From the NCBI RefSeq assembly GCF_000020125.1, contig NC_010676.1, forward strand, positions 806,001-870,000: a DNA stretch of 64,000 nucleotides, written 5' to 3'. Shown piece by piece: positions 6,755 to 61,585 of this stretch (positions are counted from its first letter, which is position 1; every line of letters starts with the position of its first letter). The notes beneath the pieces were generated by a model. That model did no database searches, was not told the origin of the DNA, and was given only the letters and a program-made list of their open reading frames with translations. Source of the DNA: Paraburkholderia phytofirmans PsJN. Its GTDB lineage: Bacteria; Pseudomonadota; Gammaproteobacteria; Burkholderiales; Burkholderiaceae. The position numbers and the translations under genes are program-made.

Positions 6755-6931
6755 ACTGAGTGCCGGCTGCCGTAGTTGTCGGGAGGTGGCCGATTTAATT
6801 CGGATACCTATAAAAAAGAAGGATGCGCGAAGCAACGCACTGCTTTAGCGCAACAGAAGACGCTTTATGAAGTCCACGCGATATTCCAACACGGTTGAGT
6901 CGCGCAAAGGACTAAACCATCGGAGGGGAAT

Positions 6932-8749
6932 ATGTGTGGAATCGTGGCTGGGATTGCGGAACGCAACGTCGTTCCGGTATTGCTCGAAGGCTTGCGGCGG
7001 CTGGAATACCGCGGCTACGACTCCTGCGGCGTGGCCGTGCTGCGGGACGGCGCGCCACACCGCGTGCGCAGTCTGACGCGCGTGCGCTCTCTGGATCGCG
7101 AGGTCCGCGAGATGGGGCTCGAGGGCTGGACAGGCATCGCGCACACGCGCTGGGCGACGCACGGCGCGCCGGCGACCCAGAACGCGCATCCCATCTTCTC
7201 GCAGAACGAGATCGCGATCGTTCACAACGGCATCATCGAAAATTTCGAGGCGCTGAAAATTACGTTGAGCGGCGCGGGCTATGAGTTCGCGAGCCAGACC
7301 GACACGGAAGTGATCGCTCATCTGATTCACAGCTACTACCAGGGCGATCTGGCGGAAGCTGTGCGTCGCGCCGTGAGCGAGTTGCGCGGCGCCTATGCCA
7401 TCGCGGTCTTCTGCAAGTCCGAGCCGGAGCGCGTGGTGGGTGCGCGGTATGGCTCGCCGCTCGTGATCGGAATAAACGGCAAGGAATCGTTTCTTGCGTC
7501 GGACCCGCTCGCGCTTTCCGACGTCACCGACCGGTTCATCTTTCTGCAGGACGGCGACATTGCCGATCTGTCGCACAACGGCACCCGGGTCATGAACCGC
7601 GACGGCCAGCCGGTCGTGCGCGAGGCGCGCACTTTGGCGCATCCGCCCACCGAGGCGGCGCTCGGACCGTACCGTCATTTCATGCAGAAGGAAATTTTCG
7701 AGCAGCCGCTGGCTGTGTCGAAAACGTTCCCTCGCAACAGCGCGTTCGACGCCTCGCTCTTCGGCGCCACCGACCCGCAGGCGTTCGCGCAGATCGACCG
7801 CATCCTGCTGCTCGGCTGCGGCACGAGTCACTATTCCGCGTTGACCGCCAAGGCGTGGTTCGAGTCGATCGCGAAGATTCCGACGCAGGTCGAGATTTCC
7901 AGCGAATACCGCTACCGTGAAACGATCCCGGGCAAGAACACGCTCGTGGTGCCGATTTCGCAATCGGGCGAGACCGCCGACACGCTCGGCGCCCTGATGC
8001 ATGCGCAATCGCTCGGTCAGGACCACACGCTGGCGATCTGCAACGTGGCGACGAGCGCGATCGTGCGGCAGTCCCGCTGGTCGTTCATTACGCAAGCCGG
8101 TCCCGAGATCGGTGTCGCGTCGACCAAGGCGTTTACCACGCAACTCGTGGCGCTGTTCGTTCTCGCGGTGACGCTCGGCCGCGCACGCGGTTACGTTGAT
8201 GCACAGCAGGAAGCGAGCTACCGCTCGCAGCTATCGGGCCTCTCCACGGCGTTGCAGGGCGTGCTGGCGCGCGAGCCGCAAATCATCGCGTGGGCGCACG
8301 AGATCGCGCGCACGGATAGCGCTATCTTCCTCGGCCGCGGATCGCACTTCCCGATCGCGCTGGAAGGCGCGTTGAAGCTCAAGGAGATCTCGTACATTCA
8401 CGCCGAAGGTTATCCCGCCGGCGAACTGAAGCACGGACCGCTTGCGCTCGTGACCGATGCGATGCCGGTCGTGGTGACCGCGCCGAACGACGGCTTGCTG
8501 GAGAAGCTGAAGTCGAACATTCAGGAGGTGCGCGCCCGCAGGGGCCAGGTGTACGTCTTCGCCGATGCCGATGCGAATCTGTCGAACGAGGAAGGGCTGC
8601 GCGTCATTCAGATGCCCGAGTACTACGGGGCGTTGTCGCCGATTCTGCATGTGCTGCCTTTGCAACTGCTCGCGTATCACACGGCGTGCACGCGCGGGAC
8701 CGACGTCGACAAGCCGCGCAATCTCGCGAAATCGGTGACGGTGGAATGA
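6932..8749 (+). CDS. glmS: Glutamine--fructose-6-phosphate aminotransferase (isomerising)
   Basis: A full-length 605-residue GlmS. The N-terminal glutaminase begins MCGIVAG with nucleophile Cys2, followed by [11 protein letters not shown] and HTRWATHG. Two SIS isomerase domains follow (GCGTSHYSA near 290, SQSGETADT near 338), and the C-terminus ends with the conserved [12 protein letters not shown]. It converts fructose-6-P and glutamine to glucosamine-6-P. An excellent site (GGAGGGG) precedes the ATG. Its place in an EPS operon suggests a dedicated copy that raises amino-sugar supply for the polymer; whether another copy exists is outside the window. No glmS ribozyme-like leader was recognised. 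Confidence 0.95.
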
Positions 8750-8792
8750 AGTGCGGCGCGCGTTGCATATCGATCCATCGAGACAATCAGCG

Positions 8793-10442
8793 ATGAACAC
8801 GATAAAGGTTGGGGTTCTCGTCGACGACGTTGCGTTGCCGGCCTGGGTGAATCACATGCTCGGGCTGATTGCCGCCGAGCAGGGAATGGAGATCGCCCTG
8901 GTCGTCAAATATGCGTACCAACGGCGGCCGGCGAGGAAAACCCCTTCGCAGGCCGGTCCGTGGCCCTTGTCGCTGTGGATGGCGCTCGACAAACGGCTCG
9001 TCAAGGTTGGACACGACGCGTTCAGGACCGAGTCCCTGGCTGCGGCGCTGGCGGAAGTGCCGACCTTGAATGTCGAAGTGGAGAGCAAGAAATGCGGGGA
9101 TCATTTCGATCCTCGCGACCTCGCGAAAATCGCCGCGCATGGCATCACCGTATTCCTGCGGCTGGGCCCGTTGCGACCGTGCGGCGAGATCTTCGATACG
9201 GCTTCTTGCGGCATCTGGTCGTATCGGCATGGCGATGAAGTCGTCGAACGTGATGGACCCGTCGGCGTGTGGGACATTCTTCTGGACCGCACAACGACGG
9301 CGTCCGCCTTGCAGTTTCAGACAAGGGCGGGGGAACGTCCGCACACACTGCAAAGATCATGGTCGATGACCTATCCGGTGTCGATTCACAGGAATCGCAG
9401 CCACTGCTACTGGAAGACGCTTTCGTTCGCGCCGCGAAAGCTGCGCGAGCTGAGGGAGATCGGCGAAGACAAGTTCAGGCTGAAATACACGCGGGCTGAC
9501 GCGCCGCCGGCGTTCTATTCTGGAGAGAAAATCGCCGAGCCGACCAGCGGCGCTTACGGAAAATTCATTGGCCAGTTGATGGCGAGAACCGTCGCAAAGA
9601 AGGCAAGCGGGCTGCGCAAGTTCGAACAGTGGATGCTGCTGTATCACTTCGGCGAGAACGATCATCTGCCTGAGCGTCTTTTCGAGTTCAAGCAACTGCT
9701 GCCGCCCAAGGACCGCTTCTGGGCAGACCCGTTCGTGGTCGAAAGAAATGGCGAGTATGCGGTCTTTATCGAAGAACTCGAATACTCGAAGAACAGGGGG
9801 CATCTCTCGGTTATCCGTTTCGATGCAAACGACCAGCCGATTCTGCCACCCGTGAAAATTCTGGAGCGGCCTTATCACCTGTCTTATCCATTCATGCTGG
9901 AGGAGGGCGGCGAACTCTACATGATTCCGGAGACCAACGAGAGCAAGGCCATCGAGCTTTACCGGTGCACGCGGTTCCCGGATCAGTGGGAACACGTCAT
10001 GAACCTGATGGATGACGTGATGGCCGTGGACACGACGATCTGGCGTCACGACGGCAAGTATTGGCTGTTCGCCTGCATGCGGGAAAACGAGCACGCACCG
10101 CTGTCCGACGAGTTGTTTCTGTTCTGGTCGGATACGCTGTTGAGCAAGGACTGGCATCCTCATCCCTGCAACCCGATCGTGTCGGATATCAGAACTGCTA
10201 GACCCGCGGGGAGCATCTTCGAACATCGCGGACAGTGGTATCGGCCTGCGCAGGACTGCAGTGGTAAATACGGGCGCGCGTTGTCGTTTCAGCGTATCGA
10301 TGCTATCGACGAGACTGCCTATAAGGAAACGCCGGCGAGCCGGATCGAAGCAAACTGGGACGCGAGCATTGACCGCGTGCACACGTTCAATCGGGCGGGA
10401 CGATTGACCCTCATCGACGGGATGAAAAAGCGCGCTAAATAG
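8793..10442 (+). CDS. Formyltransferase-like protein fused to a GINT1-N-like beta-propeller
   Basis: About 549 residues in two parts. The first ~200 residues resemble formyltransferase folds: LRLGPLRPCGEIFDTASCGI followed by WSYRHGDE near residue 145, comparable to the conserved region around the active His of methionyl-tRNA and sugar formyltransferases. Residues ~300-545 carry repeated Trp/Asp motifs (DRFWADPFVVERNGEYAVF, YHLSYPF, YMIPETNES, YWLFACM) typical of the propeller-like domain named after glucosamine inositolphosphorylceramide transferase N-termini. It directly follows glmS. I infer amino-sugar modification or transfer for the EPS. ATG 8793 (MNTIKVGVLVDD) is preferred over GTG 8751 on homology. 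Confidence 0.6.
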   Translation: MNTIKVGVLVDDVALPAWVNHMLGLIAAEQGMEIALVVKYAYQRRPARKTPSQAGPWPLSLWMALDKRLVKVGHDAFRTESLAAALAEVPTLNVEVESKKCGDHFDPRDLAKIAAHGITVFLRLGPLRPCGEIFDTASCGIWSYRHGDEVVERDGPVGVWDILLDRTTTASALQFQTRAGERPHTLQRSWSMTYPVSIHRNRSHCYWKTLSFAPRKLRELREIGEDKFRLKYTRADAPPAFYSGEKIAEPTSGAYGKFIGQLMARTVAKKASGLRKFEQWMLLYHFGENDHLPERLFEFKQLLPPKDRFWADPFVVERNGEYAVFIEELEYSKNRGHLSVIRFDANDQPILPPVKILERPYHLSYPFMLEEGGELYMIPETNESKAIELYRCTRFPDQWEHVMNLMDDVMAVDTTIWRHDGKYWLFACMRENEHAPLSDELFLFWSDTLLSKDWHPHPCNPIVSDIRTARPAGSIFEHRGQWYRPAQDCSGKYGRALSFQRIDAIDETAYKETPASRIEANWDASIDRVHTFNRAGRLTLIDGMKKRAK

Positions 10443-10527
10443 TGAATCACTGCCGTAGCCGGCGCGGCGCCGGATCGTCCGGTGGTCATTTAGCCAGGCA
10501 ACTCCCGCATACGGAAGCATCAAAGCG

Positions 10528-10560
10528 ACAGCCCCGCATTACGCCGGGGCTGTTTTAATT
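10528..10560 (+). terminator. Intrinsic terminator of the EPS operon
   Basis: A 9-bp GC-rich stem (ACAGCCCCG at 10528-10536, complement at 10545-10553) with an 8-base loop is followed by TTTTAATT. The T tract is on the plus strand only, fitting an end to transcription that reads through glmS and the formyltransferase-like gene. Confidence 0.85.
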
Positions 10561-10574
10561 CGCGTCCGTCTATC

Positions 10575-10808
10575 TCACGGTGTTCTCTTTGTTCCGGACG
10601 GTCCGCGAAGCTCGGGCGAGTCTGCGTGACCGTTATCGGCATTTCCATAACGCCGTTCGTTCGCGGCACGCCGCTTCTGCTTGCTGGCGAGCGGTTTTCC
10701 GTATTCCTCGCGCTCTCGTAGTGCACCGTTGCGAACCAGTAGCCAAAGCAGGACTACGACGGTGATCCATACGGAAACGATGACAACAATTGTGGTTGAT
10801 GTGAACAT
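10575..10808 (-). CDS. Possible small membrane protein, unrecognised
   Basis: A 77-residue frame starts MFTSTTIVVIVSVWITVVVLL, one clear N-terminal transmembrane helix, then a basic, charged tail (REREEYGKPLASKQKRR). No good Shine-Dalgarno sequence precedes the ATG. The helix-plus-basic-tail layout is protein-like, but the gene is short and may be spurious. Confidence 0.35.
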   Translation of the reverse strand: MFTSTTIVVIVSVWITVVVLLWLLVRNGALREREEYGKPLASKQKRRAANERRYGNADNGHADSPELRGPSGTKRTP

Positions 10809-11312
10809 GGCGAGCCTGCATATTGGAATTGATTTATAGGCGTGAACGGCGGTAAAGCGTTCGATCCAGGCGACTCAACCTGGTGCCTCAAATTTACTGG
10901 TTGCCACTTTGGTCCCCCCCGTTTTGATGTATTTGGTGCCGATGTTGAGGCTAAAGGCGAGCCCTTTCTGCGGCAAGGCGCACACAGAAATCAAACTGCT
11001 CGGGAATGCACGGACAAGAAACAACCCGGCGCATGGCGGTGCGCCGGGAGTGGCGGATGCCGCTGTGGGTATACTCCTAAGAATGCAATTCACGCTGCGG
11101 ACCGGCGAGTGCCGGCATCCGATGTACCCGGCAGGGACGCCAGGCCGGACGTGCATGTCTTGCTAACAATTTAATGGAGCGTTATAGGAGAGTGCAGGGT
11201 TGAGCCGGCTAATCGAGTGTGGCGGAGCGTGCAGCGTTGCAAATCGTGGCCACGCCCGTGGGAATGATAAAGTGCGCATCGATCCCCGCTTTCCTTAACT
11301 CACGGAGGACGT

Positions 11313-11480
11313 ATGACACTTTTGAGCATCGTCGGGACGGTTGTTTTCGTCGCGATTGTCTTGCTCTCGCTGTTGGCGGTGATGGATGTCCTGCTATTCA
11401 CGTCCGATAAAAAGAAAATGATGAAGTCCGGGGCCGGAGCGCGAAAACTGGGCGGACGTTGGAGATGCCTGCGTAAATGA
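11313..11480 (+). CDS. Small single-helix membrane protein (55 aa), unrecognised
   Basis: ATG 11313 is preceded by a strong CGGAGGACGT site. The 55-residue product begins MTLLSIVGTVVFVAIVLLSL, one transmembrane helix to about residue 29, then a basic cytoplasmic-type tail rich in Lys and Gly (DKKKMMKSGAGARKLGG). The ribosome-binding site and hydrophobic profile support a real gene. I do not recognise a family. It ends 34 bases before the convergent GDSL hydrolase gene. Confidence 0.6.
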   Translation: MTLLSIVGTVVFVAIVLLSLLAVMDVLLFTSDKKKMMKSGAGARKLGGRWRCLRK

Positions 11481-11513
11481 GGCGCCTGCGTGAGCGCCCC
11501 TGCGCAACCGTTA

Positions 11514-12737
11514 TCAAGGTACCTGGACGGGCGGGCCGGCTGTGAGCGCATTTAGATCCATCGCGTCGGCGATGGCTTGCAAGCCCGCTTCGTTCGGATG
11601 GAGGTCATCGCCGCTGTTATAAGCCGGCAGCAAATTAGCGGGATTGGCGGGGTCGCTGACGGCCTTCGCCTGATCGAGTACCGCATCGCAGCCGCTTGTC
11701 GAACTCAGGATGAAGGCGTTAATGTCTTGCCGCGCAGCTTCGACGGGTCCCGTTGCGGCAAACGGCGTCAGCGTAGAGCAGATCACCTTGATGTTGGCAC
11801 GATGCGCGCGCTCGATGAGCTGTCGCAATGCACCGATCAATCGGGCAGCCGTGGACGGTTTGTCGGTGTTCAGATCGTTGATTGCGTCGTCCGAGATGAC
11901 CACCCAATTCGCGCCCGGTTGCCGAAGCACGTCGCGACCGAAGCGTTTGAGACCGGCCTGTCCGGCGTTATTGGTAAAGAAGTCATTTCCGCTGATGCCC
12001 TGGTTGAGCACGCCCACAGTCATGCCGGCCTGTTGCAGCCGTATGGCGAGCCGATTAGGCCAGCGATGGTTTCCATTCACGCTCGACTTGAGGCCGTCGG
12101 TTATCGAGGCGCCAAACGTGACCACCGCCCCGGTCGCGGCTGGGCTCATCACGTCGAGGTTCGTCAGGAAATAGTAGGACTGGCCGCCCGGGGAGAATGT
12201 GCTCCCGCCGGTGAAGGCCGGGTCGGCGGCAACGTCTCCAGCGGCGATATAGATGTCTTGCAGGCCGTCGACGTGGCCGGTCGAGCGCGGCGCCGTCCGC
12301 ACGGGTAGATAGAGGCTGATGGCGATATCGGAGAGCGCGGGAACTTCGAACGCGACCGGGTCGCTCACGACCGAAGCGCCCACGGCAATCGTCACGTTCG
12401 GCTGGCCGCCGAACGTGACGGCGCGGTCGCTGCCGGGCACCGTTTGCTGCCCTGGCGCGCCGCGCGCGATCCGCGCTTCGCCGATTACGAGCGGCTCGGA
12501 GCCGAAAAGATTCGACAGATGGATTCGCGCCGATGTCCCGCCGATGCTGGTGCGCACTATCTGCCGCAACGTCTGGTTATTGAAGCCGGCATCGTCGGTG
12601 ATGGAGGGCGAAGCCGACCACGTGCCTATCCAGGGCGCGGACGTCTCGACGCCTTGCACGCGATTGCTGGCGGTGCCAGGCAGCACGATAGAGATGACCA
12701 GGGCCGCTTTGAGAAGCGCCGGAATCCATCGGTTCAC
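11514..12737 (-). CDS. Secreted SGNH/GDSL-family hydrolase
   Basis: The 407-residue protein has a signal peptide (residues 1-30). After a ~170-residue jelly-roll-like domain comes the SGNH core: VVTFGASITDG with nucleophile Ser211, NQGISGND around 245-252 (block II), INDL at 286-289 (block III lacks the usual Gly) and DDLHPN with Asp377/His380. This layout matches large secreted esterases or lipases acting on acyl or acetyl esters, often on polysaccharide. Start is GTG at 12737, supported by GAGGAAAAAGAC upstream. It is monocistronic and divergent from the NRPS-like gene. Substrate unknown; deacetylation of a surface polysaccharide is one possibility. Confidence 0.85.
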   Translation of the reverse strand: MNRWIPALLKAALVISIVLPGTASNRVQGVETSAPWIGTWSASPSITDDAGFNNQTLRQIVRTSIGGTSARIHLSNLFGSEPLVIGEARIARGAPGQQTVPGSDRAVTFGGQPNVTIAVGASVVSDPVAFEVPALSDIAISLYLPVRTAPRSTGHVDGLQDIYIAAGDVAADPAFTGGSTFSPGGQSYYFLTNLDVMSPAATGAVVTFGASITDGLKSSVNGNHRWPNRLAIRLQQAGMTVGVLNQGISGNDFFTNNAGQAGLKRFGRDVLRQPGANWVVISDDAINDLNTDKPSTAARLIGALRQLIERAHRANIKVICSTLTPFAATGPVEAARQDINAFILSSTSGCDAVLDQAKAVSDPANPANLLPAYNSGDDLHPNEAGLQAIADAMDLNALTAGPPVQVP

Positions 12738-13127
12738 GTCTTTTTCCTCGTGGAAGGCCGAGCTTCGTTAAGTGCGATGACGGTTGCAGACGCATCGCGC
12801 CAGGTTCGCTGTCTTTCGATTTAAACGTTCTTTGCCTATGCGTTCGGTACGGTAGATAACACTGTGCCGGACGGCGAGCGAATTCAGATCGCTCGCCCGC
12901 AACGAGCATATGGTCGAAAGTACATGCAGCGGGACTCTGCACGGCGACGCGTGTAATTTTGTGTGAGGTCGCACATAGCATCGTTGTCACGCGCAGTAAT
13001 CTGTTTGCGAGGGAAGAGTGCCCAAGGCCGAATAAGAGGCATTGTCGGAATGCGACTGTTCGCCGGCGCCCGCCGGCCGACAGGCAGATAACTACATATA
13101 ACGCTTTATTCCACAACTGGTGGCGGG
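12738..13127. other. Divergent intergenic region
   Basis: Some 390 bases between the GDSL hydrolase (minus) and the NRPS-like synthetase (plus). It must hold both promoters. No ORF with a ribosome-binding site and no clear operator was seen. Confidence 0.35.
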
Positions 13128-16100
13128 ATGAATCACGAGAATTTCGTCGGGGCCAGCATGCGCATGTATGCGCGCGAACCCGTATTTCAGAACTTGCCGG
13201 AGCGCGTCGCCGGATCACGCATGTCACGCTTTACCGCTGCGCTGGAAAACTTCACCGGTGAGCGTTTCGCGGACTATCCAGAACTGCATGCTTATTCGAC
13301 GCGCGAATTTCGCCGGTTCTGGCAGTGCTTTCTGCAATGGACGGAGGGAATGGAATGGGGCGGTAAAGCGGAACCGGCCTGCGTCGGCGACGAATGCGAG
13401 ACCGCTTCCTTCTTTCCAAACGTCGAACTGAATTACGCCCAAAGCGTTCTTGGATCGAAGATCGCGCCGGACGAGTCGCCGGCACTCACCGCGCGTTATG
13501 CCGATGGCCGCCGCGAAACGATGACGCGCGGCGAGCTGCGCGAGCGTGTCGCGCGCCTTGCCTGTTCGCTCAACGAGCTCGGTCTGTGCCCGGGCGACCG
13601 CGCGGTCGCGATAATGCGCAACGACGCGCACGCAATCATCGCCGCGCTCGCGGTCACGGCGCTGGGCGCGACGCTCTCCACCGCGGCGCCCGAAACCGGC
13701 GTGCAGGCGATCCTCGACCGCTTCGAGCCGCTCGAGCCGCGCATATTGTTCGCGCACACGACGCAGCGCTCATTCGATACGGCCGGCTCGATCGCTTCGC
13801 ACGTCGCCGCCGTGGCCGCCGCGTTGCCCACGCTCACGCACGTCGTCTGCCTGGATGAAACGCCGCTGCCGAGCACGGTGAGCCAGCCTCAGCATTCGCT
13901 GCGCGATCTCATCGTTCAGGGTGACGCCGCGCGCTTCGCATGGCGGCGCTTTCCATTCAATCATCCGCTTTTCATCATGTTCTCGTCGGGCACGACGGGA
14001 AAACCCAAGTGCATCGTGCACGGTGCCGGCGGCACCTTGCTCGAACATCTGAAAGAGCACCAGTTGCACAGTGACCTGGGTCCTGGCGACAAGCTGTACT
14101 TTCACACAAGCTGCTCGTGGATGATGTGGAACTGGCAATTGTCAGCGTTGGCTTCGGGCGTCGAGATCGTCACGTACGACGGACCGGTTTCGGAAGTCGA
14201 CACGCTTTGGCGGATGGTCGCCGATGAGCGCGTGACCGTGTTCGGCACGAGTCCGGCCTATCTGAAGATGTGCGAGGACGCGGGCCTGAAACCCGGCGAG
14301 CAGTTCGGGCTGCACGCGCTGCGCGCGATGATGTCGACGGGCGCCGTGCTGTACGACTCGCAGTTCGAATGGGTGCGCGCCTACGTCAAGCCGCTGCAGC
14401 TTCAGTCGATTTCCGGCGGCACCGATATCATCGGCTGCTTCGTGCTGGGCAATCCGAATCTGCCGGTCTATGCGGGCGAAGCACAGTGCAGGAGCCTGGG
14501 CCTCGATGTTCAGGCGTGGAACGAGGGCGCGCCCACCTCCATGACCGGCGAGCTGGTTTGCGTCAATCCGTTTCCGTCGCGCCCGCTCGGCTTCTTCGGG
14601 GACGCGGACGGCTCGCGCTTTCACGCCGCCTATTTCAAGGCGAATCCGGGCGTGTGGACGCACGGCGACATCATCGAGTTTTCGGCGCAGGGATCGGCTC
14701 GTCTGCACGGACGCAGCGATGGCGTGCTGAATGTGCGCGGCATCAACGTGAGCCCCGGCGAGATCTACCGTATTGTCAGCGGTATTGGCGAGATCAATCA
14801 GTCGATGGTCGTCGCGCAGACCACCCATGACGCGAGCGGATCGGGCCAGCGTGTCGTGCTGCTGCTCGTGTTGCGGCGGGGCGCGAAGATGAGCGCCGCG
14901 CTCGCTTCGCGGGTACGGCGTGAATTGATGCTGCAGGGTTCGGCGGCGCTTGTGCCGGACGTGATCGCCGAAGTCGAAGCGCTGCCCGTCACGCACAACG
15001 GCAAGGCTTCGGAGGCGGCCGCGCGCGATGCCGTGAACGGCTTGCCGGTGCGCAACCTGTCGTCGCTGGCGAACCCCGGATGCGTCGAGAAGATCAGCGC
15101 GCATCCCGCGCTTGCCCGCACACGTCGCGAGTTGCCGGAACCGGGTGACTCGGCCGAGCAGGTCGAAGTCTATCTATGTGCGCTGTGGGAGCAGCTTTTC
15201 AGCTTCTCGCCGGTCAGTCGCGACGACAACTTCTTCGAACTCGGCGGCCATTCGCTGCTCGCCGCGCAGATGCTCGCCGAAATACGGCTGGCAACCGGCC
15301 GAACGCTGCCGCTTGCCACGCTCATCATCGCGCCGACCATTGCGCGGCTCGCGACGGTCATCACAGGCGAGCGAACGCAGGACGCGCATCCGAACGTCGT
15401 GCCGATGCGTGCGGGTCGCGGAAGGCCTGTGTTCATGCTTCACAGCATCACGGGTTCGGTGATGGAGTGCCTGACGCTGGCCGGCGCGCTGGCCAGCGAG
15501 CGGCCTGTGTACGGTTTGCAGGCGCGCGGGCTCGACGGCGACGAGGAGCCGCAGCGATGCGTCGAGGAAATGGCGAGGGTCTACGTCCGGCAGATGCGCG
15601 CGGTGCAGCCGCGCGGTCCGTATGCACTGGTTGGCTATTCGTTTGGCGGCCTGGTCGCGTTCGAGATGGCGCAGCAACTTGTGGCGGCGGGCGAAAAGAT
15701 CGAGTTGCTGTGTCTGCTCGATACTTACGTGGACGAGCGCTATTTGCCGTTGCATGAGTGGCTGTCCTTCCAGTACGAAGTCATGGCGGAGCGCGTGCGG
15801 GCATTTCGCGCACTGTCCGCGCGCGGTCGCATGGCCTATATGAAGGACAGAGTGTTCGGCGCCGCTGACCGGATTCGCATGCGACTCGGCAGGATGGCCG
15901 CGAGGCCGGCAGCCGATACGCAGGGGCTGCCGCCGGTACTGCGGCAGGTGCGCGAGTCGATGCGCGTCGCGATGGCGACGTATCGTCCGCGTCGCTATCT
16001 TGGCAGTCCGATCGTCTACGTGCGCGCGTCCGGCAGGGAAGGCGGGCAGGGCGATCCGCTGCCGGCATGGCAGCGCGTGGCAAGGAGCGGGCTGCTGGTG

Positions 16101-53749: not shown

Positions 53750-54916
53750 ATGAGTGACCCTATGCAGCCGCCGTTTTCCATTCTCTTCGTCGACGACGAC
53801 GAGATGTCGCGCAATCACTTCGCGCGCGCGATGAGCGCCGATTACAAAGTGTATGTCGCACAAAGCGCTGACGAGGCGATAACGGTGCTAGGCAAACACG
53901 CCTCCGAGATTGCCGTGCTGGTGACCGACTTCCGCATGCCTGGCCGCGACGGCGACGAACTGCTGCGCGAGGTGGCGCACGAGTATCCGCAAATCGTGCG
54001 CATTCTCGTGACCGCTTATGCCGACAAGGACATGCTGCTGCAAACGGTCAATACCGGCGACGTGTTCCGCATCATCGAAAAGCCGCTGCGAACGGACATG
54101 GTGCGCGAGGTGCTGCACCTCGCCACCGCGCGTTACACCGAACGGGAAACGCGTCAGCAGCGGCTGCTCGCCATGGACGAGACGCTCGCCTTCCTCGCGC
54201 ACGAACTGAACACACCGCTGGCCACGATCTCGCTGTTCGCGCGCTCCGTGGAGAACGACGTGGCCGAGCAATACGATCCCGAGCGTCAGCGGGAGATCGG
54301 CCTCGCGGCGAAGTCCATGTTGAACAACGCGCAGTATTGCCTGACGCTGATCTCGTCGTTCTGGGCGACCGTGCACAAGAGCGGCGGCCAGAAGTCCGCC
54401 TCGGGCGGCGGCACGCGCGCGGTCCGGGCGACGCGCCTGATCGCCACGCTGCTCGACACCTATCCGTTTGTCGCGTCACAGCGCGATTGGGTGAAGGTCG
54501 ACGTGGAAGGGGATTTCGTCGTGCACGCGATGCCCAATTGCGTGGCGCTCGTGCTGTCTTCGCTGTTGTCCAACGCGCTGCGCGCGCTCGACGGCGGCAG
54601 CGCGCCCGTGTTGCGGCTCGAAGTGGTGGCGTTCCCTGAGCCCGAGATCCGCATCCGCGACAATGGCCCGGGGATCGCGCCGGAGGTCAAGGCGCGTCTG
54701 CTGCAGGATCCGGTCACCACCTACGCGGGCGCCGGCGGCCACGGCATGGGCATGATCTTTTGCAACCGCATCATGCAGTCGTTCGGCGGATGCCTGCGGA
54801 TCGAATCCACGGTCGGCGCGGGGACTACGGTGACCATGGGCTTTCCGGGTTTCAATAGCCGCATGCACAGCGCTGATGATGAGGAGCCGTCTGCTAGTCA
54901 GGCGGCTTTGAGATGA
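53750..54916 (+). CDS. PhcR-like response regulator with C-terminal histidine kinase domain
   Basis: From ATG 53750 (GGGAA upstream) 388 residues. Receiver domain: acid pocket Asp15-17, phospho-acceptor Asp60 in VLVTDFRMPG, Thr88, Lys111 in IIEKP. A short linker leads to a HisKA box FLAHELNTPL (His151) and an HATPase with N-box around Asn275, DNGPGIAP (304-311) and GGHGMGM (329-335). This REC-HK order without membrane helices is that of PhcR of Ralstonia and JqsR of Janthinobacterium, partners of CqsS/PhcS-type sensors. It is probably the cognate partner of the CqsS-like kinase 3 kb away. ATG 53717 is an alternative. Confidence 0.82.
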   Translation: MSDPMQPPFSILFVDDDEMSRNHFARAMSADYKVYVAQSADEAITVLGKHASEIAVLVTDFRMPGRDGDELLREVAHEYPQIVRILVTAYADKDMLLQTVNTGDVFRIIEKPLRTDMVREVLHLATARYTERETRQQRLLAMDETLAFLAHELNTPLATISLFARSVENDVAEQYDPERQREIGLAAKSMLNNAQYCLTLISSFWATVHKSGGQKSASGGGTRAVRATRLIATLLDTYPFVASQRDWVKVDVEGDFVVHAMPNCVALVLSSLLSNALRALDGGSAPVLRLEVVAFPEPEIRIRDNGPGIAPEVKARLLQDPVTTYAGAGGHGMGMIFCNRIMQSFGGCLRIESTVGAGTTVTMGFPGFNSRMHSADDEEPSASQAALR

Positions 54917-54947
54917 GGTTCCATACTTGGCGCGACTCGAAACCTCA
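54914..54947. terminator. Inverted repeat spanning two convergent stop codons
   Basis: TGAGGTT (54914-54920) and AACCTCA (54941-54947) are perfect complements around 20 bases, and contain the stop of the PhcR-like gene and the stop of the minus-strand lipoprotein. No T tract; a weak terminator at best. Confidence 0.25.
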
Positions 54948-56441
54948 CACCCAGCCGAATTGACCCGTCTCATAGTCCATGTAATAGCGATGCGTCGTGA
55001 AGAAGCCGATGCCAATGTCATTGAGATTGGTCGTGGGCAGGATGGTCGTCGTATAGTTGCCGGTCCCGGCGGTAAACGAATAGGTGTACACGTCGGCGAG
55101 ATTGCCGCGGATGGCGATCCCGAACTGAATGGTGACCTGCGTGCCGGCCGCGATCGTCGACGGGAACCCGGTGTCGAGCGTTCCAAGCGTCATGCCCGAA
55201 TTCGCTGTGTCCAGCAGCGCGCGCGTCTCGCTGCCATGGTTGTCGAAGTACAAGGTTGTCAAGTCGCCAATGTAGGTACTGCATTCGACTGAGGCTGGCG
55301 GTACGTAAGTCAAGTTTAGCGTGGCGCAACTCGTGTTTGAGGTCCAGCCACTAGCGAACCCTAGCGCCTGCGTGGTCGTAGCGTTGACGCCGACCGTCAG
55401 GGAGGGCACGGCAGCGCAACTACCCTGCGTGCCGATCTGGCAGTTCTGCAAAGTAAGCGGCGCCAACAGGAAACCGGGGTCCACGTTCGACGAAAACGAC
55501 ACCGAACGTAACGGGCTGAGAAGAGCACATGCGTTCGACGAACCCGGCGGCGTGGCGCAGGTCCCCGGATAGACGAAGGCGCCGGTCAGGGGGCCGATAG
55601 GCGTATAGGTCCCTCCAACACCGAACACATTCGATGCGACCGTCGACGGCAACGCCGTGCCGTTGGCGCTGGTCGATACCTGGTACACCAGCAGGATCGG
55701 AAGTACCGCCGTGGTCACATCTCCGGCAGAACCGAAAGTCACCTGCGCGTAAGCCAGATTGCCGGTTGCCCTGATCAAAGGGCCATTCGTGCTGTAGGCG
55801 CCGAAGAGTGTTCCCAATCCAAAGTTGATGCCCGCGCCCTGGCCATTCAGATATGTCGTCATCACGTTGTTCGTGACCGTGATGCCGTTGTACGTGATCG
55901 TGCTTTGACCGGCTGGGAAATCGAAGCCGTTGATGTTCACCATGGACGGCGGAACGACATCGAACGCATTCAGTACGACGCCGGCCGAAACGGTGTCGAG
56001 CGTCGCGTTGATCGACACCGGGTTGTTGCCCACCATCGTCACGGGTACATAAGCGCGCGAGTAACCATCCGGCGCCGTGGCGACCGGATAGATGCCAATA
56101 GCGGTAGGACTGGAGATCACCGTGTTGCACGCGACATCGATGTTGCCGACATTGGCGCCCGCCACGGTGCCGCCGCCCTGGCTGATCACGCAGTTCTCGC
56201 CGCCTGGCTGGCTCGCCACTGAAATCCGATAGGCGGCGCCGTTGGTCAGTTGATCCGGGAACGCAAAGCGGGTGGCGCCCGCCGCGACGGCGATGGTCGT
56301 GGTGCCATTGGTCAGCGTCAACCCGGATGACGAGAGGTGATCGACCGTGCCCGAGACCGTATAAGTCGTCAGCGAGCCATTTCCCCCGCCGCAACCGAAC
56401 AGCGTGAGGATGCACGCCAGCAACGCGATTCTGATGCTCAT
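54945..56441 (-). CDS. Surface lipoprotein, possibly bilobal pepsin-like fold
   Basis: 498 residues. A lipoprotein signal ending LFGC is followed by GGG. The body is Thr/Ser/Gly/Val-rich with little charge, like beta-rich secreted proteins. Two motifs, LDTVSAG (near 148-154) and LLDTANSG (near 418-425), are spaced like the two DTG loops of pepsin/retropepsin folds but the Gly is replaced, so proteolysis is doubtful. It could be related to DUF3443-type proteins; I do not claim this firmly. It is divergent from a second lipoprotein gene and sits among signalling genes. Function unknown. Confidence 0.65.
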   Translation of the reverse strand: MSIRIALLACILTLFGCGGGNGSLTTYTVSGTVDHLSSSGLTLTNGTTTIAVAAGATRFAFPDQLTNGAAYRISVASQPGGENCVISQGGGTVAGANVGNIDVACNTVISSPTAIGIYPVATAPDGYSRAYVPVTMVGNNPVSINATLDTVSAGVVLNAFDVVPPSMVNINGFDFPAGQSTITYNGITVTNNVMTTYLNGQGAGINFGLGTLFGAYSTNGPLIRATGNLAYAQVTFGSAGDVTTAVLPILLVYQVSTSANGTALPSTVASNVFGVGGTYTPIGPLTGAFVYPGTCATPPGSSNACALLSPLRSVSFSSNVDPGFLLAPLTLQNCQIGTQGSCAAVPSLTVGVNATTTQALGFASGWTSNTSCATLNLTYVPPASVECSTYIGDLTTLYFDNHGSETRALLDTANSGMTLGTLDTGFPSTIAAGTQVTIQFGIAIRGNLADVYTYSFTAGTGNYTTTILPTTNLNDIGIGFFTTHRYYMDYETGQFGWV

Positions 56442-56632
56442 GTTGTGCCCCGTTGGTCTGCGTCGTGACGGCGATCGGGCCGTCCCCGGGTTCGATTAAC
56501 TATACAGTTTTCGCCGCATGGCGTTAGCGTTTTCGCTCGAACGCTAATTGGTGGTCCGTGAAAATAATTCGTCTTATAATCCGCTTCCGAATGCAAAAGA
56601 TAATAAAACAACCAACACAAGGTATTATAAAA

Positions 56633-57697
56633 ATGAAAGAAGAAAATCGGGGTTTTGAAATAAACCAGTTGCGTTTTGTATTTCCCTTTACGCTGCTCCT
56701 GGCCTCCTTGCTCTGCGCATGCGGCGGTGGAAGTAGCCCATCCTCCGCGCCGGCCGCCAATCTCAGCGCCGCGCAGCAGAATTACGAGAATTTCACGCTG
56801 GCAAGCAATGGGGGCCAACACTTTGTGACCGGCCTGCTCAGCTTTTCCACTTCGTCGGGCGGTGCGCCCACACTGAATACGGCCACCTCCTACTTTTTCA
56901 CGCGCGATTCAAGCTTGGCGCAAAGCCCGGCGGTGGCCGGTCCCCAACGGCTTACAACGGGCACCTCCACGATCGATCCGGCGCTCGGCGTGCCCGCGGC
57001 AGCCGGCCAACGTTACCTGGTGAACGGAAGTGTGGTTGTCGAGGCAATTCCAGCGCAGGTGCAGGTCAGCTACAGCGGTGCAAATGTAGAGGAAACGGAT
57101 CTGGCTTCGGACGGCAAAACCGTCACGATGACCTTGCGAGGGACCAGCTATACGACGGTGCCACTGTCCGGCGCTATTTCGAATTCGCCATCTGAGTTAT
57201 TCAACGGTAGCGCGCTTGGAATCGTCACCAACACCATTAACGGCAACTCGCTCTATAACCGCCAGGCAAGCTGGCAAACCGGAGCCGCCTATCTGAAAGT
57301 GGTGAGGGAAGTGGTTGGCGATACCGTAGTGGCAGGGGACTGCGCATTGCCCAATACGACAGGGCCGAATCTCACGCCGTGCGTCACGACCGCATCGACA
57401 CTGGAAGGCTTTTTCCCGCATACCAGCAGTGCGGACAACACGACATATAACCTGAGTGACGGTCAGATCGTCACACTCGCCGGAACGCGGGCCTGGGTCG
57501 CCAATGTCGCATCGAACTCTGCTACGACTCAGTACCGGGTCTATTTTCAGAATAACGGGCAAATCTTCAGCGGGGATCTGATCAAGGACGCTACGACGCT
57601 AGGGACCTATCCACTCGGCAGCAGCACGCCGCAGAATTTCTATATTTTCCTCAATAGCGTCGCGGTGCAGTCGGTGAAGTCGGCCATCACCTTCTGA
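56633..57697 (+). CDS. Lipoprotein, unrecognised (surface-associated)
   Basis: About 354 residues from ATG 56633. After a short basic start the signal ends LLASLLCAC with probable lipidated Cys30, followed by GGGSS, as in the divergent lipoprotein. The mature part is Ser/Thr/Asn/Gly-rich and beta-type, with no motif I can name. The upstream 150 bases are unusually AT-rich compared with the window (many A/T runs near 56560-56630), suggesting a strong promoter or recent origin. The start is uncertain (no close Shine-Dalgarno). Convergent with the sensor kinase. Confidence 0.6.
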   Translation: MKEENRGFEINQLRFVFPFTLLLASLLCACGGGSSPSSAPAANLSAAQQNYENFTLASNGGQHFVTGLLSFSTSSGGAPTLNTATSYFFTRDSSLAQSPAVAGPQRLTTGTSTIDPALGVPAAAGQRYLVNGSVVVEAIPAQVQVSYSGANVEETDLASDGKTVTMTLRGTSYTTVPLSGAISNSPSELFNGSALGIVTNTINGNSLYNRQASWQTGAAYLKVVREVVGDTVVAGDCALPNTTGPNLTPCVTTASTLEGFFPHTSSADNTTYNLSDGQIVTLAGTRAWVANVASNSATTQYRVYFQNNGQIFSGDLIKDATTLGTYPLGSSTPQNFYIFLNSVAVQSVKSAITF

Positions 57698-57781: not shown

Positions 57782-60340
57782 TCAGAAATCCCGCTGTTCA
57801 TGGCTTGCTCTCGCCGTAACGAAATACGTCTGCAACGCATCGGTCGAACGTTCGCTCAGGATGCCGATGCGCGCAAGCCATTCGGCTTCCACCGGCCATT
57901 GGCCTTCCACCACGCGCGGATAGATTTGCCGCGCGAACTGATGCAACGCCCTCGCGCCGATATTGCCGCTCACGCCAAGCAGGACATGCAACGCGCCGTG
58001 CGTCGATTCGAGGTCGCCGGCCGCGACGCTGCTCGCAAGCCGCGTCACCAACTGGCGAATCTGCTCGATGCCTTTGAGGAACGATTCGTCGAGCAGATCG
58101 AGCGATGCAAGCTCCTCAAGATGTTTCTCGTCGAGCAGTTCGCTGTCCGTCACGATGGGCAGTTTGCCGGCCGGCGTCGGCGATAGTTCGGCTTCTGCCG
58201 GCACGCTCGAGCCGCGTTGCTGGGCGAACTGCCGCGCAAGGCACGCGTAGAGCGACCCGGCTTGCACCGGTTTGATCATGACTTCGTTCATGCCCACGGC
58301 GAGACAGGTCTGCACGGCCTTGATATCGGACTGGCTGGTCAGCGCGATGATCGGCACGGTGGCATACGCGTCGGCGCGCGCGCGAATCGATGCAGTCGTT
58401 TCCAGGCCGCCCATGCCCGGCATATTCATGTCCATGACGATAGCGTCGATCACGCCGTCCGCCTGCAGATGCGCGAGCACGGCCTGCCCGTGCTCGGCCT
58501 CCACGACGCTCGCGCCGCATCGCTCCAGATAGGCTTTGGCCACCAGCCGGCTGTAGGTGTCGTCGTCCGCGACGAGGATCGATTTGCCGGAGAACGCGTC
58601 GGATTTCTGGCTCAGATGGTGGCGGTTGCCGTTCTCGACGAGCGCCTGCAGCGTGGTGATCAATTCGATCACGCTGCAGGATTTGCTGATGATTCCGTCC
58701 ATGCCGGCGCGCCGGGCGAGCACACGCACCACACTCCCAGGCTCGGCGGTATAAGCGGCAATCAGGACATTCCAGCCTGGATGGTCGTGACCGGCGCGAA
58801 TTCTCTCTGCAGTCGTGTAGCCGTCCAGAACCGGCATGTTGATGTCCATCAACACGAGGTCATACGGGGCCGACTCGCGGAGCACGGTCAACGCAAGCGC
58901 GCCATTTTCCGCTTCGCTCACGTGCGCGCCCACTTTCGACAATGCACGACAGGCGCGCGCACGCTGAGCGGCGTCGTCGTCCACCACGAGAATGCGCCGG
59001 TCTTTGAACACCGGCGTGGCGCGTTCAAAAATCCGCTGCTCGTGTTCTACGATCTCGCTCTTCGGGACGACGGGAAATCGCAGCGTGAATTCCGTGAACT
59101 TGCCGACTTCCGAGCGGCAACTGATGCTACCGCCGAAGGCGCGCATCGCGCGCTGGCAGTAAGCGAGTCCGAGTCCCGTGCCGCCCGAAGTGCCCGCGGT
59201 ACGGAAAGGCTCGAACAGATGCGACACCATCTCGGGCGCAATGCCGGGCCCCGTGTCGCGAACCATGACCGACTGCTGTTCGATCGTCAGTGTGAGCGTG
59301 GCCGCCGGGTGTGTGGCGATGTGATGCAGCGCGTTCTTGATGAGATTGAACAGCGTGAACAGATAGACGGTTTCGTCGACCTTGAAGGTAAAGTCTTCCC
59401 GCACCACCAACCTGACCTTGCCGCGTTCCTTTTCGTCGCCGAAGCCGTATTCTTCCAGCGCCTTACGCGTGGTGCCCGTCGCGCTCAGATACGTAAGGTA
59501 GTCCGGGCGAATGGGTTTGGCGCTGACCTCGTCCAGCGTCATGGCAATAATGCGCAGGCCGCGCTCGATCGACAACTGCCCCTGGGCGAGATGACGATAT
59601 AGCCCAGCGGCGCTCTCGTTCCTGTCGTGCCGGTCGTGGTGTTTGTCGTGTGTGAGGGCGAGCGGGCGGTTGGCTCCCATCGTAGCGGGCAGGGCTTCTT
59701 CCACGCGATCCAGCACATAGCGCAACTGGCTGAGAGGGTTGCGCATTTCATGCGCGATCGAACCGGCGAGAGCCTGCAACGCGCGGTTCTTTTCGACGAA
59801 GATGCGTCCTTTACTGATCGCATGGCTGAACGCCATGCTGCAAAGGACGACAACCGGCAGCAAGGCGAGATTCGACTGATCGGCCGCGGTCACGACGATC
59901 GGCACCGGCGAACTGATCACCGCGGCAAGCGCCCCGGAAAAAACGCCAATGCCGATGCAGCCCATCAGCAAAAGCGGATTGTCGATGCACAGCGCCATGA
60001 TGAAGATCATCATGACCTCGGTCATCATCCACATGGTGGAGAATGAATTTCTGATCGCGAGAAATGTGCAAACGAATGGCAGGACGTAGATCAGGCAGCA
60101 ATGCCAGTAGATCAGCAGGTAATGATTGAACCGCTTTGGCCAGCGTGCCTGGAAAATCAATGGAATGCAGACGAGCGCCGCGCTGAGCCGAAGGGCGAGA
60201 TTGTCGTAAGGCTGTGGCAGGACATAGGTCCAGACTACGTAGTAGATGGGGTGGCACAGGAGGCCAAGTGCGCCGCCCCATCGTATTGCAAACCGGCTTC
60301 GTTCCAGCACGTCCCGCATGCTCTCGCGCGGCATTAACAT
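57782..60340 (-). CDS. CqsS-like hybrid sensor histidine kinase (TM-HisKA-HATPase-REC-REC-Hpt)
   Basis: 852 residues; ATG 60340 has a perfect GGAGG. The N-terminal membrane domain (about 20-180) matches Vibrio CqsS in wording and spacing: HPIYYVVWTYVLPQPYDNLALR and SFSTMWMM. Then HisKA with SIAHEMRNPL (His197), HATPase with NLIKNALHH, DTGPGIAP and GGTGLGLAY, two receivers (Asp499; Asp637) and an Hpt with HVLLGVSGNIGA (His785; Lys of the usual HxLKG is Leu). Classic CqsS has only one receiver. A His/Asp-rich loop (231-243, HDKHHDRHDRNES) follows the H-box. It is 18 bases downstream of the AAR-like gene and presumably senses a hydrophobic signal. Confidence 0.85.
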   Translation of the reverse strand: MLMPRESMRDVLERSRFAIRWGGALGLLCHPIYYVVWTYVLPQPYDNLALRLSAALVCIPLIFQARWPKRFNHYLLIYWHCCLIYVLPFVCTFLAIRNSFSTMWMMTEVMMIFIMALCIDNPLLLMGCIGIGVFSGALAAVISSPVPIVVTAADQSNLALLPVVVLCSMAFSHAISKGRIFVEKNRALQALAGSIAHEMRNPLSQLRYVLDRVEEALPATMGANRPLALTHDKHHDRHDRNESAAGLYRHLAQGQLSIERGLRIIAMTLDEVSAKPIRPDYLTYLSATGTTRKALEEYGFGDEKERGKVRLVVREDFTFKVDETVYLFTLFNLIKNALHHIATHPAATLTLTIEQQSVMVRDTGPGIAPEMVSHLFEPFRTAGTSGGTGLGLAYCQRAMRAFGGSISCRSEVGKFTEFTLRFPVVPKSEIVEHEQRIFERATPVFKDRRILVVDDDAAQRARACRALSKVGAHVSEAENGALALTVLRESAPYDLVLMDINMPVLDGYTTAERIRAGHDHPGWNVLIAAYTAEPGSVVRVLARRAGMDGIISKSCSVIELITTLQALVENGNRHHLSQKSDAFSGKSILVADDDTYSRLVAKAYLERCGASVVEAEHGQAVLAHLQADGVIDAIVMDMNMPGMGGLETTASIRARADAYATVPIIALTSQSDIKAVQTCLAVGMNEVMIKPVQAGSLYACLARQFAQQRGSSVPAEAELSPTPAGKLPIVTDSELLDEKHLEELASLDLLDESFLKGIEQIRQLVTRLASSVAAGDLESTHGALHVLLGVSGNIGARALHQFARQIYPRVVEGQWPVEAEWLARIGILSERSTDALQTYFVTARASHEQRDF

Positions 60341-60358
60341 CAGGCCTCCAGTGACGTT

Positions 60359-61585
60359 CTACGACCCCATCAATTCTTGCTTGCCGCGAACTTGCGCATC
60401 CGCCAACTCGATCGGCGAACCGTCTTTCCCGTGGAAAGGGCCGACCGTGAAGCCGTACTTCTTCAGCAGGCTGTGCGTGTACGAGACGGACCACACGGGC
60501 GGGCTGCCGATGATGAAGTCGGACGCAATGCCTTCCTGCCAGGCGGAGTAGCCTTCGGCGAAACAGGTATAGCAGTCGCGCGTGCTCGGCAGCCGGAACG
60601 GGAACGCGGTGTCGAGTCCGGCAGGGCCACGGGCGAAGCACTCAATATATAGCGTATGACCGCGTGACGCGAGTTCAGCCTCGACGCTCGCCGCCCGCGG
60701 ATGGGAGTCGTCGATCCAGAACTGCGCACGCTTGAGATCGGCCGCGGTGAGGTAGGGCACGCTGGTGCTGCTCGCCAGGATCGCGCCGTCGAAGTCCGGC
60801 AACGGCGTGTTCGGGCTAAAGGTGTGCACGGAGACCCGCGTTTTACCGAGCAGGTCCGATGCCATCAACTCCCTGGCTTGCTCCGTGAGCAGGTTCACCT
60901 TGTCCGGCAGGTCGATCAGAACAAGCTCGCGCGGTGCATCTTTATAGAGCGCGTATTTGGCCACCGTCGTGCCGAGCCGGCCGGCCGCGCCGAATAGAGC
61001 AAGCCTGGTCTTGCCGAATTCGAGGTCGAGCTCATTGCAGCAGTGCATGGCCCAGTCTTTCAGCATCGCGGCGGTGGCGGCGTGGCCCGTGGTGATATGC
61101 GGCGGTTTGGTATCGCGCGGCAGTGCCCCGTAGTTGCAGGCGTAAGGCGTTGAGGCGCCCATCGCCACCATGTTCAGGCCGGCCTGTCTTGCCAGCTCCA
61201 GCGCCGGGAAAAATTGCGTCTCGCGGAATCGCTTGATGCCGCGCGGGCTGCCGAGCCACATTTCCAGCGGCACCGGGCAGGCAATATTGGCGCCGATGAT
61301 CTGGGAGCCCGAATAGATCGGTGAGGCAATGAAAGGCTTGGTGTTCCAAAGCTCTTCTTCGAATGACGCATTTCGTTGCTTCACATTGTGAAATGAAAAC
61401 GAAAGTGTTTCCCAATCGGTAGCGTGAAATAGAAACCCGACTCCGCCTTGACCGGCCGGCAGATTATCCCGGATCTCGTCCGGGGGGATGGTGTGTTTAA
61501 GTTTTAAGGCGCCCGTTTGAAGTTGACGAACCCCGTGTTGCTCGTCGGAATAGGTCTTTACTTCGTGGTGAACAGAAGTTCTCAT
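60359..61585 (-). CDS. Acyl-ACP-reductase (AAR)-like NAD(P)H dehydrogenase
   Basis: 408 residues. Features shared with cyanobacterial aldehyde-forming acyl-ACP reductase: LNMVAMGASTPYACNYG then ITTGHAATAAML (AAR reads GAST and TTGN-x-x-TA), Rossmann motif LALFGAAGRLG (196-205) and the C-terminal YTCFAEGY, where Cys341 corresponds to the catalytic Cys of AAR (ACFAE). AAR is about 340 residues; this protein has ~60 extra N-terminal residues. It should reduce an acyl thioester or related acid to an aldehyde. GGGAA lies upstream of the ATG. It is first in a two-gene unit with the CqsS-like kinase. Product unknown. Confidence 0.65.
   Translation of the reverse strand: MRTSVHHEVKTYSDEQHGVRQLQTGALKLKHTIPPDEIRDNLPAGQGGVGFLFHATDWETLSFSFHNVKQRNASFEEELWNTKPFIASPIYSGSQIIGANIACPVPLEMWLGSPRGIKRFRETQFFPALELARQAGLNMVAMGASTPYACNYGALPRDTKPPHITTGHAATAAMLKDWAMHCCNELDLEFGKTRLALFGAAGRLGTTVAKYALYKDAPRELVLIDLPDKVNLLTEQARELMASDLLGKTRVSVHTFSPNTPLPDFDGAILASSTSVPYLTAADLKRAQFWIDDSHPRAASVEAELASRGHTLYIECFARGPAGLDTAFPFRLPSTRDCYTCFAEGYSAWQEGIASDFIIGSPPVWSVSYTHSLLKKYGFTVGPFHGKDGSPIELADAQVRGKQELMGS

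Follow-up and report, generated by a model that had tools for sequence, protein, structure and literature searches.

A 64,000-nucleotide stretch of Paraburkholderia phytofirmans PsJN (positions 806001-870000 of contig NC_010676.1, here called the window, within which features are numbered) encodes an enzyme and an adjacent sensor kinase that probably constitute an Lqs/Cqs-type lipid-signalling module. In the known systems, CqsS/LqsS sensors respond to alpha-hydroxyketones (AHKs) made by the pyridoxal phosphate (PLP) enzymes CqsA and LqsA. Judging from the sequence, a reductase of the acyl-acyl carrier protein (acyl-ACP) reductase (AAR) type takes the place of the AHK synthase in the window and would make the ligand or start its synthesis. 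The enzyme (408 aa; 60359..61585, minus strand) has an AAR/TAD fold with a Rossmann motif, GAAGRLG, at residues 199-205 and a candidate catalytic cysteine, Cys341, in YTCFAE. The kinase (852 aa; 57782..60340, minus strand) is an LqsS/CqsS-type hybrid comprising a membrane sensor domain, an H-box with His197, an HATPase domain, two receivers and a weak Hpt domain. The module is real and conserved. The two genes form a near-obligate pair across distant lineages, and the host genome (8.2 Mb, three contigs) lacks LqsA. The swapped partner enzyme suggests a chemical signal not yet described; if so, quorum sensing gains a new class of signal-making enzyme, and probably a new class of signal, in a large soil- and plant-associated genus.

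Conservation of the gene pair

The preliminary description of this DNA placed the kinase start 18 bases past the enzyme, and this is borne out. Both open reading frames (ORFs) are open, and the gap (60341..60358, minus strand) holds a GGAGG immediately ahead of the kinase ATG, a spacing and motif that suggest a single transcript for the two genes. The adjacency is conserved: in a co-occurrence check a related sensor lies near the enzyme in every examined genome that has the enzyme. Within the genus, all 45 genomes with an enzyme match carry a high-scoring sensor next to it in the same orientation, at a distance of 19-87 bases from where the matched stretch ends. Forty-two of these matches are long, including one with a late frame shift (G065); the decayed enzymes are remnants in G002 and G087 and a frame-shifted copy in G008. 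Only one high-scoring sensor, that of G015, has no enzyme row, and an enzyme remnant adjoins it (E 1.8e-8). G002, G015 and G087, in which the enzyme survives only as remnants and the kinase frame is open, make up a single clade, a pattern consistent with the retention of a receiver whose sender was lost.

A scan of named genome contigs returned 69 loci, comprising 17 distant proteins (23-29% identity) and 52 true relatives (L031-L082), and a related sensor is found near the enzyme in all 52 of the latter. Forty-five of these contigs are from Paraburkholderia or Burkholderia, in keeping with the close relatives of both proteins being mostly from Paraburkholderia. The others are from Oxalobacteraceae, SAR92 and Porticoccaceae (one each), Thiosymbion (two), a metagenome-assembled genome (MAG) titled Rickettsia and an unplaced proteobacterial MAG (L080). 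In these seven the enzyme is 56-67% identical and the related sensor adjoins it in overlapping, head-to-head or spaced order. The start and stop codons of the pair overlap in SAR92 and Porticoccaceae, the genes stand head to head in the Rickettsia-titled MAG, and the enzyme of L080 is flanked by a kinase on both sides; in one Thiosymbion contig (L078) the copies of enzyme and sensor are broken. Conservation across the genus genomes and the contig scan rules out adjacency as the noise of one strain. The enzyme family itself is narrow, with full matches in 2/300 genomes of an order sample (weak matches in three, in long proteins) and 2/398 of a phylum sample (weak matches in two); both times the full matches are the host genome and G038. 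A known plasmid as carrier was rejected, as no tblastn match at E 1e-5 was obtained among 72,556 plasmid records.

Some loci depart from the common layout. In L078, positions 6855-14760 contain two enzyme-like ORFs and broken sensor pieces, with a transposase-like ORF among them. In L032 (9974-13822), which shares its genome with L005, a frame shift near enzyme residue 384 leaves enzyme and kinase in a single 1282-aa frame; this may be a natural fusion or a sequencing error. Metagenomic matches to the enzyme and to the kinase often agree in the length of their longest contig; these point in the same direction and are kept out of the counts.

The enzyme

The motifs quoted in the preliminary description are all in place, with GAST at 143-146, TTGHAATA from 165 and YTCFAE from 339 in addition to the Rossmann motif. 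Conservation was counted over 121 aligned sequences (the query and the best 120 of 134 matches); alignment A1 holds 24 chosen sequences, the query and 23 among the 120 matches listed. T165, T166, G167 and H168 are present in all 121 and Cys341 in 119, with a gap in the other two. Because they are conserved across this set, the motifs exceed chance.

In the fold comparison the enzyme matches the solved structures of AAR and TAD over its whole length, and these two separate at the top, which upholds the proposed AAR likeness against membership in an unrelated dehydrogenase family. A plain malate/lactate or shikimate dehydrogenase was considered and rejected, since Pfam gives only a sub-threshold Ldh_1_N match and those folds score far below AAR and TAD. 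AAR reduces acyl-ACP to fatty aldehyde, and AAR-type enzymes sit in lipid metabolism, as established for the cyanobacterial enzyme. Cyanobacterial AAR (PDB 6jzq, 6jzu, 6jzy, 6jzz) shares with the window enzyme the fold over ~320 residues, the Rossmann motif and a cysteine aligned with Cys294, but the window enzyme is ~18-20% identical, lies far under the equivalog cut-off and is paired with a sensor kinase. The profile alignment agrees with the assignment of Cys341 to the AAR catalytic position, putting the cysteine of YTCFAE on Cys294, but the score of this stretch taken alone is -0.7 bits. The neighbours listed for the enzyme include no recognised aldehyde-deformylating oxygenase, though no profile search was aimed at one. 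The best match by both sequence profile and fold is the TAD domain of carmabin biosynthesis (PDB 9e4s-9e56), and the title of entry 9e56 reports a disulfide between TAD Cys2238 and dephospho-CoA. By its entry name this domain is part of a large biosynthetic protein, whereas the window enzyme is a free protein beside a kinase.

The sensor kinase

The membrane sensor domain occupies the N-terminal residues 1-186 of the kinase (59783..60340, minus strand) and contains W104 and T107. The motifs that had suggested a CqsS-like sensor are found where they were reported (HPIYY from residue 30, STMW at 101-104). The classification itself stands, for a profile of AAR-linked sensor domains (A3, built from ten domains, all from kinases linked to an AAR-type enzyme) recovers kinases beside NF005526-positive LqsA genes. 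Residues invariant over ten sensors from far-apart lineages include H30, Y78, W79, N98 and W104. No NCBIfam model and no solved structure matched the sensor domain by sequence; several close relatives of the kinase carry the source name "CAI-1 sensor kinase CqsS". Profile A3 has matches in 79/117 genus genomes, 17/369 class genomes and 16/300 order genomes. Scores in the genus are bimodal, at >270 bits (46 genomes) versus 83.6-130.3 bits, plus one 25.7-bit fragment in G032, the sole genus sensor match whose surroundings were left out.

Partner enzymes across the sensor family

Partners vary over the sensor tree. A census of genes within 4.5 kb of each sensor, with all ORFs considered, covered 161 sensor rows; L078 accounts for three of them, L080 and L171 for two each, and L138 and L069 are one place under two labels. 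The rows comprise 61 with an LqsA-type partner, 55 with an AAR-type, 21 with a 3-oxoacyl-ACP synthase III (KASIII)-like, three with a haem-oxygenase-like and 21 with no recognised partner, the assignments resting on profiles from few members. Among the partnerless rows are the three loci that lost the enzyme, L032, two rows on either side of a YcaO gene and several close to the end of a contig. NCBIfam or Pfam was run on five LqsA-type genes, one KASIII-type and three haem-oxygenase-like genes: all five LqsA-type genes exceed the AHK-synthase cut-off, and Pfam backs the KASIII-like identity of the one gene scanned and the haem-oxygenase-like identity of all three. A hybrid kinase follows on the same strand within 100 bases of the KASIII-like enzyme in 21/21 rows and of the AAR-type enzyme in 48/55; LqsA-type rows mostly have a short kinase and LqsR (LqsR in 58/61). 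Since KASIII-like, haem-oxygenase-like and perhaps YcaO proteins also occur as partners in this sensor family, the AAR-type enzyme looks like one of several exchanged synthases.

The host genome, which lacks LqsA, has one module of the AAR type and one of the KASIII type. The second module (L134 3949-7588, ~2498949-2502588 of the contig that holds the window) encodes a 345-aa KASIII-like protein and, 29 bases downstream, a hybrid kinase of 857 aa; the same pair occurs in twenty further genus rows. It resembles the AAR module in having the enzyme upstream on the same strand, a hybrid kinase of ~857 aa, a convergent gene for a response-regulator/histidine-kinase protein (RR-HK; in 9/21 KASIII rows and 35/55 AAR rows) and a sister sensor clade, but differs in its enzyme, which is 3-oxoacyl-ACP synthase III-like by Pfam, and in an alanine at sensor position 107.

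A maximum-likelihood sensor tree was built from 124 of 157 domains (L078 and L138 left out, L032 relabelled by hand, every fourth Paraburkholderia enzyme-linked row kept). Partner labels need 13 changes on this tree versus a mean of 58.1 after shuffling, and none of 200 shuffles reached so low a number. One group (support 99/85) unites the AAR-linked sensors with the three that lost their enzyme. The KASIII-linked sensors form another (100/100) that joins the AAR-linked group at 98/91, among LqsA-linked sensors. The direction of partner exchange, with LqsA first, is something we only infer, because the tree has many long branches and some near-copy rows, and its root is a drawing choice.

According to PMC3376566, W104 and S107 of Vibrio cholerae CqsS read the head group of the signal. 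W104 is kept in 22/22 AAR-linked rows (including the three enzyme-lost), 60/61 LqsA-linked and 21/21 KASIII-linked rows. Residue 107 follows the partner in these partly related rows, being threonine in 19/22 AAR-linked (including the three enzyme-lost), serine in 59/61 LqsA-linked and alanine in 21/21 KASIII-linked rows, and is mixed in rows without a recognised partner. The window sensor has W104 and a threonine at 107, with correspondence to CqsS numbering by position and spacing only. The presumed counterpart of a CqsS residue with a known part in head-group reading varies with the partner enzyme, and one sensor fold with several unrelated enzymes provides a natural series for how a membrane sensor kinase distinguishes lipid head groups. 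The chances seem about even that LqsS/CqsS-type sensors are a general receptor platform with an exchangeable synthase (PLP acyltransferase, KASIII, haem-oxygenase-like, perhaps YcaO, AAR-type), each making a different acyl signal with position 107 tracking its head group, and that the window pair is the first case of aldehyde-type or aldehyde-derived quorum sensing. The host genome would then house an aldehyde-type system together with a KASIII-type one.

Other sensor loci carry further neighbours. Haem_oxygenas_2 (PF14518) proteins lie beside LqsS-type sensors in other members of the class (L149 5320-6033, L153 4247-4975, L170 3657-4343), and a YcaO-domain protein stands between two LqsS-like sensor kinases in L171 (1608-2792). 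A 284-aa protein directly upstream of an LqsS-type kinase (L162 5616-6470) has no Pfam match and is a possible further type of partner enzyme. The sensors of L241, L244 and L194 belong to the KASIII-linked clade, with no KASIII gene recognised within 4.5 kb, and are possibly receptors that lost their enzyme.

Relation to known quorum-sensing systems

The preliminary description saw no CqsA homologue in the window, and this extends to the whole genome, in which no CqsA/LqsA equivalog is encoded. The NF005526 search of the host genome gave only two matches, at 195.7 and 161 bits, both under the 428 cut-off. A hidden LqsA feeding the kinase was thereby rejected, as by their own models the two are glycine C-acetyltransferase and BioF. 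Like Lqs (LqsA-LqsS-LqsR) and Cqs (CqsA-CqsS), the window module has a homologous membrane sensor domain, with the presumed counterpart of W104 kept, and an enzyme gene linked to the sensor gene. Unlike them, it has an AAR-fold reductase for the PLP synthase, threonine for serine at the position matched to S107, a hybrid kinase with two receivers and an RR-HK protein in place of LqsR; no LqsR-like ORF was seen in the module region of the window.

The Phc system of Ralstonia (PhcB-PhcS-PhcR) is similar by description in combining a sensor kinase with a regulator that has receiver and kinase parts (PMC10653808), but PhcB is a methyltransferase, and the likeness is drawn from that description. 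According to the same paper, Lqs clusters occur widely in Alpha-, Beta- and Gammaproteobacteria, and Phc is confined to Betaproteobacteria. A Phc-like operon in the host was considered at ~1447 kb of contig C3, a place found from RR-HK matches, and rejected: a kinase is present there and no PhcB-like gene was recognised by eye, without a profile search. Burkholderia xenovorans is named as having LqsA/LqsS homologues in PMC3376566 and PMC3285556; P. xenovorans LB400, reported to have LqsA/LqsS, also carries the AAR-type enzyme and kinase pair (L071). No description of an AAR-type enzyme paired with such a sensor was found among the papers listed in searches of open-access literature; subscription literature lay mostly outside the search, and an earlier description is possible.

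Proposed mechanism and alternative explanations

Under the proposed mechanism the AAR-fold enzyme would take an acyl thioester (acyl-ACP or acyl-CoA) via Cys341 and, with NAD(P)H as the reductant, yield a fatty aldehyde, which would be released unchanged or converted to a close derivative. The adjacent sensor would bind this product, shifting the balance of kinase and phosphatase activity, and phosphate would pass from His197 to a receiver and the Hpt domain and on to the convergent RR-HK protein. We infer the reaction, the product as ligand and the order of the relay, as well as the direction of exchange. The RR-HK protein (388 aa; 53750..54916, plus strand) is convergent to the kinase gene and likely the third component of the module; 35 of the 45 Paraburkholderia/Burkholderia contigs carry a homologue close to the kinase gene, on the other strand.

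Several observations weigh against an AAR-type signalling module. Identity of the enzyme to AAR is no more than 18-20%, its score for the long-chain acyl-ACP reductase equivalog TIGR04058 is 18.3 bits against a cut-off of 449.7, and the stretch that places Cys341 scores as low as given above. The HisKA and Hpt domains of the kinase score under their Pfam cut-offs, and the kinases of SAR92 and Porticoccaceae are short (410 aa). The rule of threonine at 107 is broken by three AAR-linked rows of MAG types L077 and L080, which have W, W and A, and the related rows in these counts are non-independent. A distant LqsR-like regulator lies nearby in L063 and L068, the only two of the 55 AAR rows with a weak LqsR-like neighbour. 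In the enzyme-less clade the pairwise ratio of nonsynonymous to synonymous substitution (dN/dS) of the kinase is 0.17-0.18. Three comparison pairs have ratios of 0.086, 0.095 and 0.209, the 0.209 pair with an over-long ORF call; constraint on the kinase there may be somewhat relaxed, because the ratio in the enzyme-less clade is about twice that of two of the three pairs.

The enzyme might instead consume or modify the ligand, inactivating or tuning a lipid signal that comes from neighbours or from another source within the cell, with the sensor monitoring that signal. The direction of the reaction is unreadable from sequence, and the three genomes that keep the kinase without the enzyme are also compatible with sensing an outside signal. 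Of the 42 genus genomes whose enzyme match is long, an LqsA-type sensor locus is present as well in 12 and a KASIII-type one in 10 (two have all three), but 22 have neither, and the host is itself without LqsA. In 61 rows, moreover, the enzyme near a sensor of the same family is of the synthase type, and a consuming role for the reductase is unlikely.

A role in reporting or controlling intracellular fatty-acid or aldehyde metabolism, for example the state of membrane lipids, with no cell-to-cell signalling, would agree with the place of AAR-type enzymes in lipid metabolism and with the lack of an export gene in the conserved unit among the loci listed. AHK signals, however, likewise need no dedicated exporter in the unit, and the sensor belongs to the family of AHK quorum-sensing receptors, recognised by its LqsA/LqsR-linked members; this account is quite unlikely. 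That unrelated causes put the two genes side by side, for instance the common inheritance of one block within a single genus, might be suspected from the 45 of 52 contigs that are Paraburkholderia or Burkholderia. It is in effect refuted by the seven other contigs, which keep a related sensor beside the enzyme (the L078 copies being decayed), and can be regarded as extremely improbable.

Neighbouring genes

Two ORFs lie between the kinase and RR-HK genes in the window, at 54945-56441 (minus strand) and 56558-57697 (plus strand), and neither has a Pfam match. In several relatives, for example loci L031 and L071, the kinase and RR-HK genes are directly convergent.

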